The position numbers and the translations under genes are program-made. DNA of 64,000 bases from Teichococcus aerophilus (GTDB lineage: Bacteria; Pseudomonadota; Alphaproteobacteria; Acetobacterales; Acetobacteraceae). Positions 35,281 through 41,782 of this stretch are shown here, in pieces (the first letter of the stretch is position 1; every line of letters starts with the position of its first letter). Location: positions 62,001 to 126,000 of the forward strand of contig NZ_JACTVA010000008.1 of NCBI RefSeq assembly GCF_014490485.1, read 5' to 3'. The notes under the pieces were generated by a model that worked only from the letters and a program-made list of their open reading frames with translations, ran no database searches and had not been told where the DNA came from.

Positions 35281-36054
35281 ATGGAACCGCTCAAGCCAGT
35301 CTCCGCCGGTGCCCGGGTCGTCCTGGGCATCGGCTTCTTTGTCCTGTTCATCGGGTTGTGGGCCGCCGTCACCTATGGCGGCGTGGTGCAGCCGCTGTTC
35401 CTCGCCTCGCCGGGCGCGGCGCTGGCGGCAGGCATCTCGCTGTTCACCGAATACAACTTCCTGGGTGACATCGGCATGACGGTATGGCGCGTGCTGGGCG
35501 GCTTCGTGCTGGCCGCCGTCATCGCCGTGCCGCTTGGCCTGATGATGGGCGCCTACAAGGGGGTGGAGGCGTTCTTCGAGCCCTTCATCTCCTTCGCCCG
35601 CTACCTGCCGGCTTCCGCCTTCATCCCGCTGCTGATCCTGTGGGCGGGGGTGGGAGAAGCGCAGAAGCTTTCGGTCATCTTCCTCGGCAGCGTGTTCCAG
35701 ATCGTCATCATGGTCGCCGTCATCGCCGGGGCCACGCGGGTGGACCTGGTGGAGGCCGCCTATACGCTGGGCGCGCGCAGCCGTGGCATCCTGCGCCGCG
35801 TCATCATCCCCTCCGCCGCGCCGCAGGTGATGGAGGCGCTGCGCCTGGTGCTCGGCTGGGCCTGGACCTACGTCATCGTCGCCGAGCTGATCGGCGCGCA
35901 GAGCGGCATTGGCCACATGATCATGGACAGCCAGCGGCTGCTGGATACCGGGCAGATGATCTTCGGCATCGTCGTCATCGGCATCATCGGCCTGGTCACC
36001 GACTTCCTGTTCAAGGCGCTGAACCGGCGCCTGTTCCGCTGGGCGGCGCTCTGA
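35281..36054 (+). CDS. ABC transporter permease (SsuC/TauC-like)
   Basis: 257 aa with about six membrane segments. The cytosolic EAA loop is visible as VDLVEAAYTLGARSRGILRRVIIPSAAPQVMEALR, the contact with the ATPase. Starts 10 bp after the binding-protein stop; its stop overlaps the ATPase ATG by one base (TGATG). Confidence 0.9.
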   Translation: MEPLKPVSAGARVVLGIGFFVLFIGLWAAVTYGGVVQPLFLASPGAALAAGISLFTEYNFLGDIGMTVWRVLGGFVLAAVIAVPLGLMMGAYKGVEAFFEPFISFARYLPASAFIPLLILWAGVGEAQKLSVIFLGSVFQIVIMVAVIAGATRVDLVEAAYTLGARSRGILRRVIIPSAAPQVMEALRLVLGWAWTYVIVAELIGAQSGIGHMIMDSQRLLDTGQMIFGIVVIGIIGLVTDFLFKALNRRLFRWAAL

Positions 36055-36845
36055 TGGTCCTGACCATTCGCGGGCTGACCCGCACCTTCCCCGGCCAGGG
36101 CCGCACCGCGCCGACCCTGGCCCTGCAGCCGACGGACCTGGACGTCGCGCCCGGCGAGTTCGTCTCCATCCTCGGCCCGTCAGGCTGCGGCAAGTCCACC
36201 CTGCTGCGCATCGTCGCTGGGCTGGACCGGCCGAGCGGTGGCACCGTAACCCTTGGCGGCCGGCAGGTGACCGGGCCAGGGCCGGACCGTGGCATGGTGT
36301 TCCAGTCCTACACCTTGTTCCCCTGGCTGACGGTGCGGCAGAACATCGAGTTCGGCCTGCGGGAGCGGAAGCTGCCGGAGGCGCAGATCCGCGAGATCTC
36401 GGAGAAGTTCATCGCCCGCACCGGGCTGCGGGGGTTCGAGAACCACTGGCCGCGCCAGCTCTCCGGCGGCATGCAGCAGCGCACCGCCCTGGCCCGCGCC
36501 CTGGCCAACGACCCCGAGATTCTGCTGCTGGACGAGCCCTTCGGCGCGCTGGACCACCAGACGCGGGAGCTGATGCAGGAGTTGCTGCTGGAAGTGTGGG
36601 GCGCCGACAGCCCGGAAGCCCGCAAGACCGTGCTGTTCGTCACCCACGATATCGACGAAGCCATCTTCCTGGCCAACCGCGTGCTGGTGATGTCCGCCCG
36701 CCCGGGCCGGGTGAAGGCGGAAGTGCCGGTGCCCCTGCCCTACCCGCGCGACTGGACGGTGAAGACCAGCCCGGTCTTCGCCGAGTTGAAAGCCCGGCTG
36801 ATGGCGGAAATCCGCGAGGAAGTCCGCAAGGCCGCGATCGGCTGA
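36054..36845 (+). CDS. ABC transporter ATP-binding protein (SsuB/TauB-like)
   Basis: 263 aa. Walker A GPSGCGKSTLL, Q-loop VFQSYTLFPW, signature LSGGMQQRTALARAL, Walker B ILLLDEPFGALD and H-loop VTHDIDEA are all intact. The C-terminal VPVPLPYPRDW is typical of nitrate/sulfonate/taurine-type ATPases. Powers the importer encoded by the two genes before it. A GC hairpin follows at 36850-36882. Confidence 0.92.
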   Translation: MVLTIRGLTRTFPGQGRTAPTLALQPTDLDVAPGEFVSILGPSGCGKSTLLRIVAGLDRPSGGTVTLGGRQVTGPGPDRGMVFQSYTLFPWLTVRQNIEFGLRERKLPEAQIREISEKFIARTGLRGFENHWPRQLSGGMQQRTALARALANDPEILLLDEPFGALDHQTRELMQELLLEVWGADSPEARKTVLFVTHDIDEAIFLANRVLVMSARPGRVKAEVPVPLPYPRDWTVKTSPVFAELKARLMAEIREEVRKAAIG

Positions 36846-36849
36846 GGCA

Positions 36850-36882
36850 GCGGGGCCGGGGAGCATGATCCCCCGGCCCCGC
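36850..36882 (+). terminator. GC-rich hairpin after the ABC importer operon
   Basis: GCGGGGCCGGGG (36850-36861) pairs perfectly with CCCCGGCCCCGC (36871-36882), loop 9 nt, 4 bp after the stop. Followed by TTCC only, so termination may be partial. Confidence 0.6.
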
Positions 36883-36933
36883 TTCCTGCGCGCCCCCTGG
36901 ACGCCACGCGAGGCCTCCCCCACTCTCGCCCCC

Positions 36934-37707
36934 ATGCCGATTTCCGATTCGATCCCCCGCGTCGCCCTCGTCACCGGCGGCGCCCGCCGGCTGGGCCGCG
37001 CCAGCGCCCTGGCCCTGGCCGGCGCTGGCTTCGACATCGCCATCCATCACCGGGATAGCCGGGAGGACGCGGAAGCGACCTGCCAGGCCGTGCAGGCACT
37101 GGGCCGCCGTGCCGTGATGCTGCACGCCGACCTGGCGGCGGAGGCCGAGGTGGCACGGCTGATCCCGGATGCCACGGCGGCGCTGGGGCCGGTCGGCGTG
37201 CTGCTCAATAACGCCTCCACGTTCGAGCGGGATGAGTGGCACGACGCGACCCGCGAGAGCTGGGACCTACATATCGAGCCCAACCTGCGCGCACCTTTCG
37301 TGTTGATGCAGGCCATGGCCACCGCGCTGCCGGAACACGCCACCGGCGTCGTCATCAACATGCTGGACCAGCGTGTGTGGTCCCTGACGCCGCATTTCGT
37401 CAGCTACACCGTCTCCAAGGCCGCGCTGTGGGCGCTGACCCAGAGCATGGCGCTGGCGCTGGCGCCGCGCATCCGCGTCAATGGCATCGGTCCCGGCCCG
37501 GCCATGCCGAGCACGCGGCAAAGCCCGGAACACTTCGCCCAGCAATGCGCCAGCGTGCCGCTGGAGCACGGCACCAGCGCGGCCGAGGTGGCCGAAGCCG
37601 TGCTGGCCATCCTGCGCCTGCCGGCGATGACGGGGCAGATGATCGCGCTGGATGGCGGCCAGCACTTGCAATGGGCCCCCTCCCAGGGGCAAAGCCTGCC
37701 GGAATGA
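36934..37707 (+). CDS. SDR family oxidoreductase, pteridine reductase/FolM-like
   Basis: 257 aa. It has the arginine-bearing nucleotide motif VTGGARRLGRA typical of NADPH-using pteridine reductases, NNAS, and an active site in which Asp (NMLDQR) replaces the usual Ser before SYTVSK, the D-x12-Y-x3-K pattern of PTR1-type enzymes. It ends in an ATGA overlap with folB, so a role in tetrahydrobiopterin/monapterin or folate metabolism (dihydromonapterin or dihydrofolate reduction) is well supported. ATG 36934 chosen by homology. Confidence 0.85.
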   Translation: MPISDSIPRVALVTGGARRLGRASALALAGAGFDIAIHHRDSREDAEATCQAVQALGRRAVMLHADLAAEAEVARLIPDATAALGPVGVLLNNASTFERDEWHDATRESWDLHIEPNLRAPFVLMQAMATALPEHATGVVINMLDQRVWSLTPHFVSYTVSKAALWALTQSMALALAPRIRVNGIGPGPAMPSTRQSPEHFAQQCASVPLEHGTSAAEVAEAVLAILRLPAMTGQMIALDGGQHLQWAPSQGQSLPE

Positions 37708-38105
37708 TCAGCTACACTCCCGATGCCGCCTCCGGCCTGCGGCGGGTCTTCATCCGTGGCCTCGACGTGCAGGCGCGCCTGGGCATCTACCCGCATGAGG
37801 AAGCGCCGCAACGCGTCCTCATCGATATCGAGTTGCTGGTTCGGGACGACGCGGCGCCGCATGGCACCGGCGCGGACCGGCTGGACCGGGTGGTGGATTA
37901 CGAGGCCGTGGTGAAGCGCGCCCGCGCCACCGCGACCGGCGAGCATGTCCGCCTGGCCGAGACCCTGGCCGAGCGGATCGCCCTGGGAGCGCTGAAGGAC
38001 CTGCGGGTGCTGAAGGTGCGGGTGACAGTGGAGAAGCCCGAGGCCTTCGCCGACGTGACCGGTGTCGGCGTGACCGTTGAGCGCGTGCGGCAGTTGACAT
38101 CGTGA
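37704..38105 (+). CDS. folB: Dihydroneopterin aldolase
   Basis: 133 aa. RVFIRGLDVQARLGIYPHEEAPQRVLIDIEL is the canonical N-terminus (the conserved Glu is in the HEEAPQR stretch), followed by DRVVDYEAVVKRA and the conserved Lys in VRVTVEKPEAF. Cleaves dihydroneopterin to 6-hydroxymethyl-dihydropterin in folate synthesis. Translationally coupled to the upstream SDR gene (ATGA). The 920-bp repeat-rich non-coding region follows. Confidence 0.92.
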   Translation: MISYTPDAASGLRRVFIRGLDVQARLGIYPHEEAPQRVLIDIELLVRDDAAPHGTGADRLDRVVDYEAVVKRARATATGEHVRLAETLAERIALGALKDLRVLKVRVTVEKPEAFADVTGVGVTVERVRQLTS

Positions 38106-38227
38106 AATCATCCACCGCGGCAAAATACTGGCGCGGCTGAGTTTTTTCACTGAACCGTCATCTGGGGCTTGACAGGCCCGGGCCCTTGAAATCGCAAGGT
38201 TCTTCGTGAAAACAATAGGTTACGTAT

Positions 38228-38246
38228 TTGCCCAAACTCTGGGCAA
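38228..38246. repeat. Nested inverted repeat at the left of the repeat-rich interval
   Basis: TTGCCCA (38228-38234) and TGGGCAA (38240-38246) pair around AACTC, nested inside GTTAC (38219-38223) and GTAAC (38253-38257). It lies in the AT-richer stretch just left of the first 70-bp repeat. Confidence 0.6.
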
Positions 38247-38317
38247 CATTGTGTAACGGGCAGATGACAGCCGTTTTCCGGCGTTGGCCCACCTGTCCTC
38301 CACAGAGTTTTCCACAG
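38247..38317 (+). repeat. ~70-bp direct repeat, copy A
   Basis: Shares with copy B the order CATTGT, ATGACAGCC, TTTTCCGGC, CTCCACAGAGTT and TCCACAG. It overlaps the left part of module 1. Confidence 0.75.
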
Positions 38318-38330
38318 CTTCGGTGAACAA
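38300..38330. repeat. DnaA-box-like module 1
   Basis: CCACAGAG (38300), TTTTCCAC (38308-38315), 7-bp spacer, GTGAACAA (38323-38330). The second and third blocks are inverted relative to each other. Confidence 0.7.
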
Positions 38331-38461
38331 CTCCCGCCCTTCGGGCAGCGCTTCGATGTTGCGGAAGCGTGGCGTCTTCCTGCCCGCATCCTGAGCACAG
38401 GCGGTGTGCGGCGGCGGCGGCAGACTATCCCCGCTGGTGGTGCGGCTTACCGGTGAGGTAC

Positions 38462-38492
38462 CCACAGACCTATCCACGAAATCGGTGGACAA
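38462..38492. repeat. DnaA-box-like module 2
   Basis: CCACAGAC (38462), CTATCCAC (38470-38477), 7-bp spacer, GTGGACAA (38485-38492). Same spacing as module 1. Confidence 0.75.
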
Positions 38493-38542
38493 CTCCCAGG
38501 CCGGCCCGAGCGCCGACCAAGCCCTCATGCCGATCCGCGAGC

Positions 38543-38559
38543 CATGCATCGAATGCATG
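38543..38559. repeat. Palindrome CATGCAT-CGA-ATGCATG
   Basis: Perfect 7-bp arms around CGA in the middle of the repeat-rich interval, between modules 2 and 3. Possible protein-binding site; no known match. Confidence 0.55.
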
Positions 38560-38660
38560 ATGCCATGCCCGGACGGGGCCGGCCCGGTGAAGGCAGCCTT
38601 ATGCGCTCCGAGGATACGCGTGGTGAAAACAGGGGCTCTTTCCGATCCCCCCGTCCCTGC

Positions 38661-38691
38661 CCACATTCTTATCCACTGAAACGGTGGACAA
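38661..38691. repeat. DnaA-box-like module 3 (best match)
   Basis: CCACATTC (38661), TTATCCAC (38669-38676), 7-bp spacer, GTGGACAA (38684-38691). TTATCCACT matches the DnaA box at 8 of 9 positions. Confidence 0.75.
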
Positions 38692-38890
38692 GATTTCGCT
38701 TGGTGGAGTCCCAAAACCTGCTTCGAGCTGGCCAAAACCGGCCCATTGCCACAATTCATCCACCGCCGCCCGGCACCGCCTGAAAGCGACCTTTCGTCAA
38801 TGGAAATGCTGCACTTGACGGCCCGTTGCACGGAAGGAAACTTCTATCTTGTTGATTTTGTTCGCTTCATCCTTATGCTCAAACCGTAAG

Positions 38891-38964
38891 CATTGTCGTA
38901 TGAATGGCGGATGACAGCCATTTTCCGGCCATTGCCCCCGTGCGCTCCACAGAGTTGTCCACAG
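38891..38964 (+). repeat. ~70-bp direct repeat, copy B
   Basis: Second copy of 38247-38317, about 645 bp downstream, again preceded by an AT-richer stretch (38836-38890). Confidence 0.75.
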
Positions 38965-38977
38965 GCCCCGTGGAAAA
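38947..38977. repeat. DnaA-box-like module 4
   Basis: CCACAGAG (38947), TTGTCCAC (38955-38962), 7-bp spacer, GTGGAAAA (38970-38977). TTGTCCACA matches the DnaA box at 8 of 9 positions. It lies 48 bp before the uvrC start. Confidence 0.75.
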
Positions 38978-39025
38978 GCCTAGCAACCCCTTGAGCCAGC
39001 TTGCTGTGCGTGATTGATCCTGCCC

Positions 39026-41146
39026 ATGTCCGCCCCTGACTCCCCCCCTGCCCCCGGCCTCTCCTCCGACGAAACGGGGGAAGCCTCGCCCATCCAGGGC
39101 GTCGCGGTGATCGAGGCGGCGCTGGTCCACATGCCGGCGGCGCCGGGCGTGTACCGCATGCTCGATGCCAAGGGGGATGCCCTCTATGTCGGCAAGGCGC
39201 GCAACCTGAAGAAGCGCGTCGTCGCCTATACGCAGATCGGGCGGCTGCCGGAGCGGCTGCGCCGCATGGTCTCCGGCACCCGCAAGATGGAGATCGTGAC
39301 CACGGGCAGCGAGGCAGAGGCGCTGCTGCTGGAGGCCAACCTGATCAAGCGGCTGCGGCCGCGCTACAACATCGTCCTGCGGGACGACAAATCCTATCCG
39401 TGGCTGCTGCTGACGGAGGACCACGACTACCCGATGATCGGCAAGCACCGGGGCGAGAAGCGGAAGGGCGCCAGCTACTTCGGCCCCTTCGCCAGCGCCT
39501 GGGCCGTCAACCAGACCATCACGGCCCTGCAGCGCGTGTTCCTGCTGCGCTCCTGCCGGGACACGGTGTTCTCGGCGCGGGACCGGCCCTGCCTGCTCTA
39601 CCAGATCAAGCGCTGCTCGGCCCCCTGCGTGGACCGCATCAGCAAGGACGACTATGCCGGGTTGATCAAGCAAGCGAAGCAGTTCCTCTCCGGCGAGACA
39701 CCCAGCATCCAGAAGAACCTGGCCGCCGAGATGGAACAGGCGGCCGAGGCGCTGGAGTTCGAGCGTGCGGCCAGCATCCGGGACCGCATCCGGGGCCTGA
39801 CGCATATCCAGGGGCAGAACAGCATCAACCTGGAAGGCGTGGGCGATGCCGACGTGGTGGCGCTGCACCAGCTGGCCGGGCAGTCCTGCGTCCAGGTGTT
39901 CTTCTTCCGCGGCGGCCGCAACAACGGCAACCGCAGCTTCTTCCCCAGCCACGCCAAGGATGACGCGGCACCGGACGAGGTCCTGACCGCCTTCCTCTCC
40001 CAGCTCTATGACGACCTGCCGCCGCCGCCGCTGGTGCTGCTCTCCCACGACCTGCCCGAGGCCGGGCTGATCGGGGAGGCGCTGAGCATCAAGGCGGGAC
40101 GCAAGGTGGAGCTGCACCGGCCGCAGCGCGGCGAGAAGCGCGCCGCCGTGGACCACGCCGCGACCAACGCGCGGGAGGCGCTGGAACGCCACCTGGCCGA
40201 GAGCACTGCCCAGGGCGCCCTGCTGGACGGCGTCGCCACCCTGTTCGACCTGCCGGAACCGCCGAAGCGGATCGAGATCTACGACAACAGCCATATCCAG
40301 GGCAGCAACGCCTATGGCGTGATGGTTGTCGCCGGGCCGGACGGCTTCATGAAAGGTGCCTACCGCAAATACGCCATCCGGGGCGAGAGCGGGCTGGTGC
40401 GGAACCCGCGTGGCACCCCCCAGGCCGCGCCGCTGGAAGGCGGCGGCATCGTCAGCGCCGAGGATGGCGAGGTGGTGATGCTGCCCGGCATGGGCGAAGG
40501 CCGCTCCCCCCTGCCCGGCACCATCGGCCAGGCACCGGCCAGGCCGCCCCGCGCCGGCGGCGGCTCCCGTGCCGCCAGTGGCGGCGGCGACGATTTCGCG
40601 ATGATGCGGGAGGTGTTCGAACGGCGCTTCGGCAAGGCGCTGAAGGAGGACCCGACGCGGGATGGCGAGGGCTGGCCGGATTTGGTGCTGATCGATGGCG
40701 GCGCCGGCCAGCTTTCCTCCGCCCGCGCGGTCATGGCGGAGCTGGGGCTGGAGGACCTGCCGATGGTCGCCGTGGCCAAGGGGCCGGACCGCGATGCGGG
40801 GCGCGAATGGTTCTACCGGGAAGGCCATGCGCCGATCCAGCTCCCGCCACGCGACCCGGTGCTGTACTACCTGCAACGGCTGCGGGACGAGGCGCACCGC
40901 TTCGCCATCACCACCCACCGCGCCGGCCGTTCCAAAAGTTTAACGCGCAGCGAGTTGGACGAGATCCCCGGCGTCGGTTCCGCCATCAAGCGGCGGCTGC
41001 TGAACCATTTCGGCTCTGCCCGCGGGGTGCGGCAGGCCGGGTTGAGCGACCTGAACAACTGCCCAGGCATCGGTCCGGCGATGGCGACCCGCATCCATGA
41101 GCATTTCCACCCTGGCGCAAGCGGGCCGAATTCGGCAAAGGGCTGA
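39026..41146 (+). CDS. uvrC: UvrABC system protein C (excinuclease subunit)
   Basis: 706 aa, longer than the usual 600-620. Order: GIY-YIG nuclease ([26 protein letters not shown], about 42-120), Cys-bearing segment (RCSAPC), UVR motif ([21 protein letters not shown]), RNase H-like 5' nuclease ([20 protein letters not shown] and [15 protein letters not shown]) and tandem HhH at the C-terminus ([25 protein letters not shown]). About 65 Gly/Pro-rich residues (about 453-520) are inserted in the RNase H-like domain. Makes both incisions in nucleotide excision repair. ATG 39026 preferred over an upstream TTG (39014). Confidence 0.94.
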
Positions 41147-41170
41147 GGCAGAGCGTGATAGGGTACTGGC

Positions 41171-41782
41171 TTGCCGACTGATCTGCCCAACCTGCTGACC
41201 ATCTCCCGCATCGCCGCGATCCCGCTGCTGGTGCTGCTGGCGGCGCTTCGCACGCCGGTTGGGGATGCCGCGGCCTGCGCCGTCTTCGCCATCGCCGCCA
41301 TCACCGACTATTTCGACGGCAAGATCGCGCGGGAGCGGAAGCTGATCTCCGCCTTTGGCCGCATGCTGGACCCGATCGCGGACAAGCTGCTGGTCGGCTC
41401 CGCGCTGATGCTGCTGGCGGGGCTGGAGCGGCTTTCCCCGCTCGGCCTGCTGCCCGCCATCGTCATCCTGCTGCGGGAGATCCTGGTCTCCGGCCTGCGC
41501 GAGTTCCTGGCCGGGCTGTCCGTCGGCCTGCCGGTGACGCGGCTGGCGAAGTGGAAGACCGGCATGCAGATGGCGGCGCTCGGCACCCTGCTGGCCGGCG
41601 ATACCGGCGCGCGGGTGCTGGGCCTCGGCTTCCTGCCGGTCAGCATGCTGGGGGAGGCCATGCTCTGGGCCGCCGCCGTGCTCACCCTGGTCACTGGCTG
41701 GGACTACCTGCGGGCCGGCCTGCGCCATGCGGAGGAGCAGGATGTCGCCCGCTCCGCCGGGGAAAACCTGCCGCCTTCGTAG
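41171..41782 (+). CDS. pgsA: CDP-diacylglycerol-glycerol-3-phosphate 3-phosphatidyltransferase
   Basis: 203 aa with several membrane segments. It begins with a TTG start 24 bp after uvrC; LPNLLTISRIAAIPLL is the usual N-terminus, which supports the TTG. The CDP-alcohol phosphotransferase motif DG-x2-AR-x8-G-x3-D-x3-D is exact in YFDGKIARERKLISAFGRMLDPIADK. Makes phosphatidylglycerol-phosphate at the inner membrane. uvrC-pgsA is a common proteobacterial pair. Confidence 0.92.
   Translation: MPTDLPNLLTISRIAAIPLLVLLAALRTPVGDAAACAVFAIAAITDYFDGKIARERKLISAFGRMLDPIADKLLVGSALMLLAGLERLSPLGLLPAIVILLREILVSGLREFLAGLSVGLPVTRLAKWKTGMQMAALGTLLAGDTGARVLGLGFLPVSMLGEAMLWAAAVLTLVTGWDYLRAGLRHAEEQDVARSAGENLPPS

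Follow-up and report, generated by a model that had tools for sequence, protein, structure and literature searches.

Four DnaA-box-like cores between folB and uvrC

The window, that is, the whole 64-kb stretch of Teichococcus aerophilus DNA analysed here, carries an array of DnaA-box-like sites in the intergenic interval between folB and uvrC. Its features are given below, with negative distances counted upstream from the start of the core concerned.

38106..39025, plus strand: folB–uvrC intergenic interval, lying between the folB and uvrC frames and holding the entire array
38108..38116, plus strand: candidate upstream DnaA box TCATCCACC (7/9), at −188 from core 1; relatives often have a box at this place
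38210..38222, plus strand: IHF-type site AAACAATAGGTTA, one mismatch to WATCAANNNNTTR, at −86 from core 1
38228..38246, no strand assigned: palindrome TTGCCCAAACTCTGGGCAA, at −68 from core 1, matching TTGCC-N9-GGCAA in full; the Fis consensus also fits its inner 15 bp
38296..38330, plus strand: DARS-like core 1 (box III 38296–38304, box II 38308–38316, inverted box I 38322–38330)
38458..38492, plus strand: DARS-like core 2, a bare core with a Fis-consensus match at −63
38657..38691, plus strand: DARS-like core 3, a bare core
38845..38857, minus strand: reverse-oriented IHF-type site TATCTTGTTGATT, one mismatch, at −98 from core 4
38875..38893, no strand assigned: degenerate palindrome ATGCTCAAACCGTAAGCAT, four mismatches, at −68 from core 4
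38943..38977, plus strand: DARS-like core 4, immediately upstream of uvrC
39026..41146, plus strand: uvrC, with its ATG at 39026 (the ORF list starts at TTG 39014); in relatives the gene is preceded by the element

Four modules had been predicted on the plus strand at 38300, 38462, 38661 and 38947 (first base of CCACA), and all of them are confirmed with their 8-bp step and 7-bp spacer; the arrangement of two direct boxes and a third, inverted one is likewise seen in the sequence of each. Every core is a 35-mer in which box III, 3 bp, box II, 5 bp and the inverted box I follow one another: TCCTCCACA-gag-TTTTCCACA-gcttc-GGTGAACAA in core 1 (start 38296), GTACCCACA-gac-CTATCCACG-aaatc-GGTGGACAA in core 2 (start 38458), CTGCCCACA-ttc-TTATCCACT-gaaac-GGTGGACAA in core 3 (start 38657) and CGCTCCACA-gag-TTGTCCACA-ggccc-CGTGGAAAA in core 4 (start 38943). 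While the fixed geometry of the predicted motif holds, its uniform GTGG does not, and neither does a T at the start of box II. Because module 1 has GTGA and module 2 a C as the first base of its box II, a search of the whole window genome with the strict 27-bp pattern retrieves modules 3 and 4 alone. Core 1 is accompanied by a full set of sites (outer box at −188, IHF-type site at −86, palindrome at −68); cores 2 and 3 have neither an IHF-type site nor a palindrome at the kept places.

Scored against the consensus DnaA boxes, with at least 5/9 demanded of every box and a total out of 27, each of the four cores agrees at 21 positions. By the same rule no other site in the 64-kb window reaches 18/27, and none of 1000 dinucleotide shuffles of the interval yields a site at ≥20/27. 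A background of 80 stretches of 20 kb (1.6 Mb), taken from five family genomes and from contig C97 of the window genome so that none spans the uvrC core, holds no site at ≥20/27 and two at 19. The proposal that these DnaA-box-like sites are selected for a binding geometry is strongly supported at the sequence level. A 679-aa open frame on the minus strand (window 38879–40918) runs antisense to uvrC and core 4, and is apparently a by-product of high G+C.

The cores share the geometry of E. coli DARS1 and DARS2

In E. coli, the DnaA-reactivating sequences (DARS) return the initiator protein DnaA to its active form through a core of three sites. In strain MG1655, the DARS1 core in the bioD–uvrB interval reads TAATACACA-tgg-TTATCCACA-ggaat-AGTGGATAA (24/27), and the DARS2 core in the mutH-side interval reads TTCTTCACA-act-CTATCCACA-gaaaa-GGTGAATAA (22/27). 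Box order, box orientations and the 3-bp and 5-bp gaps are identical in the window modules, whose 21/27 lies below both. Passages of a 2017 review (PMC5742627) describe the DARS1/2 cores as three boxes with equal spacing, box I being opposite to boxes II and III, and name the head-to-head DnaA contact on boxes I and II as a prominent DARS feature.

Upstream of the E. coli DARS2 core we find IHF-like 13-mers at −87 and −71, with one mismatch each and 3 bp apart, the same separation that a passage of the DARS2 paper gives for IBS1-2. An inverted box lies at −185, an additional, weak IHF-like 13-mer at −413 and further boxes at −304 and −431. Some 300 bp from the DARS2 core there is another site with the geometry of a DARS core (20/27; L254:3452–3486).

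The core is conserved before uvrC

A search for the pattern in related genomes had been suggested as a check, and it finds the core conserved at uvrC in close relatives. The strict pattern TTNTCCACA-N6-GTGGA is present in 110 of 150 family genomes; in 99 of these 110 a strict core stands just upstream of the uvrC protein match, at a distance of 4–406 bp, and the uvrC-linked family sites are on the uvrC strand without exception (102/102). Class-wide, 75 of 192 genomes searched have the strict pattern. Among the 69 with a listed uvrC place, a tally that leaves out six strict-core genomes without one, 59 have the core 24–632 bp before the uvrC match, again always on the uvrC strand (59/59). All but three of these linked genomes (56/59) lie outside the window's family, under 42 family labels by hand count. 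The reversed pattern, our control, gave 3 hits in the family scan and 9 in the class scan (hand counts). Titled organisms with a core before uvrC include Komagataeibacter xylinus, Roseomonas oleicola, Asaia astilbis, Acetobacter sacchari and Paracoccus alkenifer.

When family loci were instead taken by uvrC homology (26 from the homology search and 20 hand-picked), 38 of the 46 held a site at ≥20/27. Most other family loci examined have a single core. Across 101 cores, selected for box match, box III is weak, with strong conservation limited to its last five bases.

The element is not universal, since the strict pattern is absent from 40 family and 117 class genomes, 11 of 110 family genomes and 10 of 69 in the class have their strict core away from uvrC, and a looser core makes up for this only in part: it occurs at ≥20/27 in the 1 kb upstream of uvrC in 7 of 20 class genomes picked for lacking the strict pattern (one of these stretches, at a contig end, has 508 bases). 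The family genomes with a strict core off uvrC are G098, G180, G059, G080, G102, G068, G021, G111, G092, G081 and G019. Among the seven of these 11 that were looked at, G092, G019, G021 and G081 have a looser core at uvrC as well as the strict core elsewhere, and G098, G102 and G068 have no uvrC core at ≥20/27.

A wider layout of fixed distances

The surroundings of the core were compared in 37 loci, namely 17 of 20 family loci, retained for a core at ≥20/27, and 20 other-family loci chosen for the strict core. In the alignment of the 17 family loci, the core is preceded by a box TTGTCCAC, an IHF-type site and TGC....GGCAA, and the same upstream layout is found in the 20 other-family loci. An exact IHF consensus lies at −85 to −88 in 14/37 loci (block-shuffle mean 0.04), rising to 23/37 with one mismatch allowed (mean 0.39). 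The palindrome TTGCC-N9-GGCAA, with at most two mismatches, is positioned at −67 to −69 in 30 of the 37 (mean 0.06), and the box TTNTNCACA at −179 to −205 in 19 (mean 0.07). These distances within the element are kept, whereas anything from 4 to 632 bp separates the core from the uvrC match.

The Fis consensus is also matched at −65 to −67 in 23/37 loci (block-shuffle mean 0.08), mostly on the same bases as the palindrome. An HTH_8 search recognised no short Fis protein in eight genomes, that of the window included, and every HTH_8 (Fis-type) match in them sits in an open frame of at least 176 aa; since open frames are upper bounds on protein length, this leaves some room for a short Fis.

At the sequence level, the likeness to DARS2 extends to this layout. 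The IHF-like sites at −87/−71 in DARS2 correspond in position to putative IHF sites at −85 to −88 in the alphaproteobacterial loci, and the outer DnaA box at −185 to one at about −188. The shared IHF-site distance is meaningful because a 5-bp shift of IBS1-2 leaves only partial DARS2 activity, according to a passage of the DARS2 paper. Both elements are intergenic and distant from oriC, as judged in relatives for the uvrC element. They differ in their neighbour (mutH for DARS2, uvrC here) and in the number of cores, which is four in the window. Where DARS2 has its second IHF-like site, the uvrC element has TTGCC-N9-GGCAA at −68, and its putative counterpart of the Fis sites FBS2-3, without which DARS2 is not active, is a fit to the Fis consensus. 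DARS1 has the core geometry and a UvrABC gene as neighbour in common with the uvrC element; however, its core is opposite to the uvrB strand whereas the alphaproteobacterial core is on the uvrC strand, and the 300 bp on its box III side are without an IHF-type site (≤1 mismatch).

Cores of the same build in other Proteobacteria

An exact 19-letter pattern scan of titled genomes returned at least 115 stretches, mostly beta- or gamma-proteobacterial among the matches listed; the set is biased by its selection towards near-perfect cores and should not be read as a census. Nearby frames were clustered, and the resulting gene-neighbour groups were named from one representative each by Pfam. Among the matches listed, at least 29 loci lie beside a priA-type gene (28/29 on the same strand) and at least 13 beside xseA, 12 of which also adjoin an exbB-type gene. 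At least 10 loci each are beside gltA, a HemN-type gene and uvrC, and at least one is beside uvrB. For the survey of flanking sites, cores within 330 bases of a stretch end were dropped. Again among the matches listed, the reverse IHF consensus occurs at −100 to −91 in 8/29 priA, 5/13 xseA and 12/47 other cores, and the priA, gltA/HemN and other loci repeatedly carry boxes at −190 to −161, which the 13 xseA loci lack. Across these loci (L138–L252), the same build apparently persists next to differing gene neighbours.

The replication origin probably lies elsewhere in relatives

A chromosomal replication origin, one reading offered by the original prediction, would account for the cluster of DnaA boxes, and two features are in line with it: the G+C of the interval is lower than that of its surroundings, and the GC skew in the window changes locally from about −0.03 to about 0 near 39–40 kb. 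The position of parS in relatives points the other way. An exact parS pattern was found in 17 of 30 genomes, and distances were measured in nine closed or near-closed family genomes with one clear parS cluster on the uvrC contig and a known length of that contig. Left out were the window genome (parS on another contig), G068 (five scattered parS matches, no core at uvrC) and G147, G151, G157, G158, G174 and G183. In the nine genomes, uvrC is 0.24–1.45 Mb from parS. Expressed as a hand-worked fraction of the way to the opposite pole, this is 0.18 in G130, 0.22 in G164, 0.49 in G064, 0.80 in G096, 0.85 in both G029 and G187, 0.90 in G167, 0.995 in G083 and 0.997 in G061, hence at least 0.49 in seven of the nine.

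GC skew, sampled in ten stretches each from G083, G130, G167 and G187 and more finely near parS, agrees with this placement. The negative-to-positive switch of G083 falls at ~1.80–1.82 Mb, with parS at 1.82 Mb and uvrC at 0.73 Mb. In G130 it is at the contig start, with parS at 11–15 kb and uvrC 0.24 Mb from parS. It lies within about 0.1 Mb of parS in G167, where uvrC is 1.45 Mb from parS, and within about 0.25 Mb in G187, where uvrC is 0.83 Mb away; in G083 and G187, uvrC is near the opposite skew switch. The same-genus genome G007 (20 stretches) has a weak skew, and its uvrC (2.995 Mb) is on the falling limb, nearer the maximum than the minimum. The GC-skew check that had been suggested, run here in relatives, puts the skew minimum of these four genomes near parS and away from uvrC. 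rRNA genes, tried as a further marker of the origin, gave no match in any of nine genomes, perhaps because such stretches are withheld from the set. Near parS, too, the search for a dense DnaA-box cluster came up empty, with no more than 3 boxes per 400 bp, a point in favour of an origin at the interval. Even so, for the draft window genome, judged by relatives in which parS and the skew switch lie elsewhere, an oriC at the interval is unsupported. We reject it and give it next to no probability.

Among eight genomes searched for dnaA, three (G083, G167 and G187) have the gene 13–81 kb from uvrC and far from parS and the skew minimum, where dnaA is not usually found; in G130 about 0.42 Mb separates it from uvrC.

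A probable DnaA-reactivating element and its alternatives

Outside E. coli and its kin, no settled route of ATP-DnaA regeneration is known to us. In a passage of a 2014 paper, the DARS2 core is said to be conserved specifically among E. coli-related gamma-proteobacteria, as is Fis (PMC4245941). The 2017 review, in the corresponding passage, refers to E. coli-proximal beta- or gamma-proteobacteria (PMC5742627), and a 2023 review to DARS1/DARS2-like sequences conserved in many proteobacterial species, with alphaproteobacteria unnamed in the passages concerned (PMC10380432). A literature search on DARS, DnaA and Alphaproteobacteria led to a DARS passage that concerns E. coli and V. cholerae. No report of a DnaA-reactivating element at uvrC was found in the freely accessible papers searched, a result that falls short of establishing absence from print.

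We interpret the interval as probably a DnaA-reactivating element of the DARS2 type that has grown to four cores in the window, because the core geometry is that of DARS1 and DARS2 and because box, IHF-type site and palindrome keep fixed distances in relatives from across the class. Counting against it are the weak box III, the lower score of the window cores, the mismatch in the window's IHF-type site, the want of a recognised Fis and the incomplete conservation of the element. Of the readings in the original prediction, the origin falls away on the evidence from relatives, and the control element fits best, with its module now named as a DARS-core build.

A different reading of the same sites is that DnaA and IHF switch uvrC with the cell cycle and have no effect on DnaA itself, perhaps extending to the downstream pgsA-, moaD- and moaE-type genes. 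The core is on the uvrC strand wherever the two are linked, and such an invariable gene neighbour and strand also fit control in cis. From E. coli, one paper reports raised uvrB transcription in a dnaA mutant (PMC6015884), and the DARS1 core is located between bioD and uvrB. However, the orientation to the gene is reversed at that very uvrB, the core-to-uvrC distance is variable against the kept internal distances, and cores of the same build adjoin other genes in beta- and gamma-proteobacteria. Such a reading would moreover have to put down to coincidence both the exact DARS spacing and the agreement of IHF-type site and outer box with their positions in DARS2. We consider such exclusive control of uvrC unlikely; regulation of uvrC besides a DARS role is possible, the two not being exclusive.

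A still lower probability attaches to DnaA titration or a datA-like function, in which the boxes would sequester DnaA or, with IHF, promote ATP hydrolysis. The minimal datA of E. coli consists of boxes 2, 3 and 7 and one IHF site in the passage of the review devoted to it (PMC5742627), and the uvrC element resembles it, compared by description only, in having DnaA boxes and a putative IHF site outside oriC. The box-like sites are indeed clustered, 13 such 9-mers falling within 870 bp of the window, and an IHF-type site separates the outer box from the core. Set against this, a stated feature of DARS is just such a head-to-head core, with gaps of 3 and 5 bp, and most other family loci examined, having one core, could titrate little DnaA. 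According to a passage of PMC12371093, the titration boxes of E. coli are concentrated around oriC, whereas uvrC lies about halfway or further to the opposite pole in most of the genomes measured above.

The complementarity of boxes II and I could in principle also reflect a structured RNA or a terminator, and module 3 does fold better than most shuffles (z −2.5; 4/200 shuffles as good). Modules 1, 2 and 4 fold no better than shuffles, though, and in a set of 101 distinct cores, chosen by box match, a standard base pair occurs in only 50 at pair 3 and in 12 at pair 9. An RNA would also leave box III and the outer sites without an explanation, and the stretch 36000–41500 has no Rfam match at gathering scores. 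With three of the four modules folding like shuffles, the pairing not kept and no Rfam match, we reject an RNA element as very improbable.

For the DARS2-type element, we envision a sequence of steps modelled on E. coli. ADP-DnaA would occupy boxes III and II as a tandem pair and box I in head-to-head orientation. The DNA would be bent, and the DnaA oligomer altered, by IHF and by a second, palindrome-bound protein in place of Fis. ADP would then be released, and the apo-DnaA could rebind ATP. The resulting ATP-DnaA could start the next round at the distant oriC. More tentatively, and as a candidate that we hold with less than even confidence, the second protein may act on TTGCC-N9-GGCAA and replace Fis within an ancient alphaproteobacterial composite element before uvrC. 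Elements of the same build beside repair or replication-restart genes (priA, xseA, uvrB, mutH) in other proteobacterial lines would then link DnaA activation to repair, and the genus would raise the dose with its four-core array. The DARS pattern before uvrC is a testable candidate for how Alphaproteobacteria re-arm replication: the roughly 220-bp fixed element, found in many alphaproteobacterial families and carrying a conserved palindrome, can be deleted and assayed at once.

Probable duplication and core number in the genus

The 60-bp left flanks of modules 1 and 4 share 41/60 ungapped positions, and the three other module pairs compared share 15/60, 16/60 and 21/60. With left flanks shared to this degree, modules 1 and 4 look like old duplicates of one larger element; the earlier judgement that the modules point to selection rather than recent duplication is half right, and modules 2 and 3 are bare cores. 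Judged by anatomy and shared flanks, the array points to whole-element duplication with bare cores in between. In the genus, an ancestral single element upstream of uvrC would have been duplicated, with bare cores arising between the copies, and up to four cores would probably mean a higher dose.

Core numbers were scored in 16 of 17 genus genomes (the exception, G015, is 71% complete and gave no match), in stretches mostly chosen by similarity to the window interval. They range from one to four sites at ≥20/27 per fetched stretch, and this series within one genus amounts to a ready-made natural dose experiment. Four such sites are present in five genus genomes, the window genome included.
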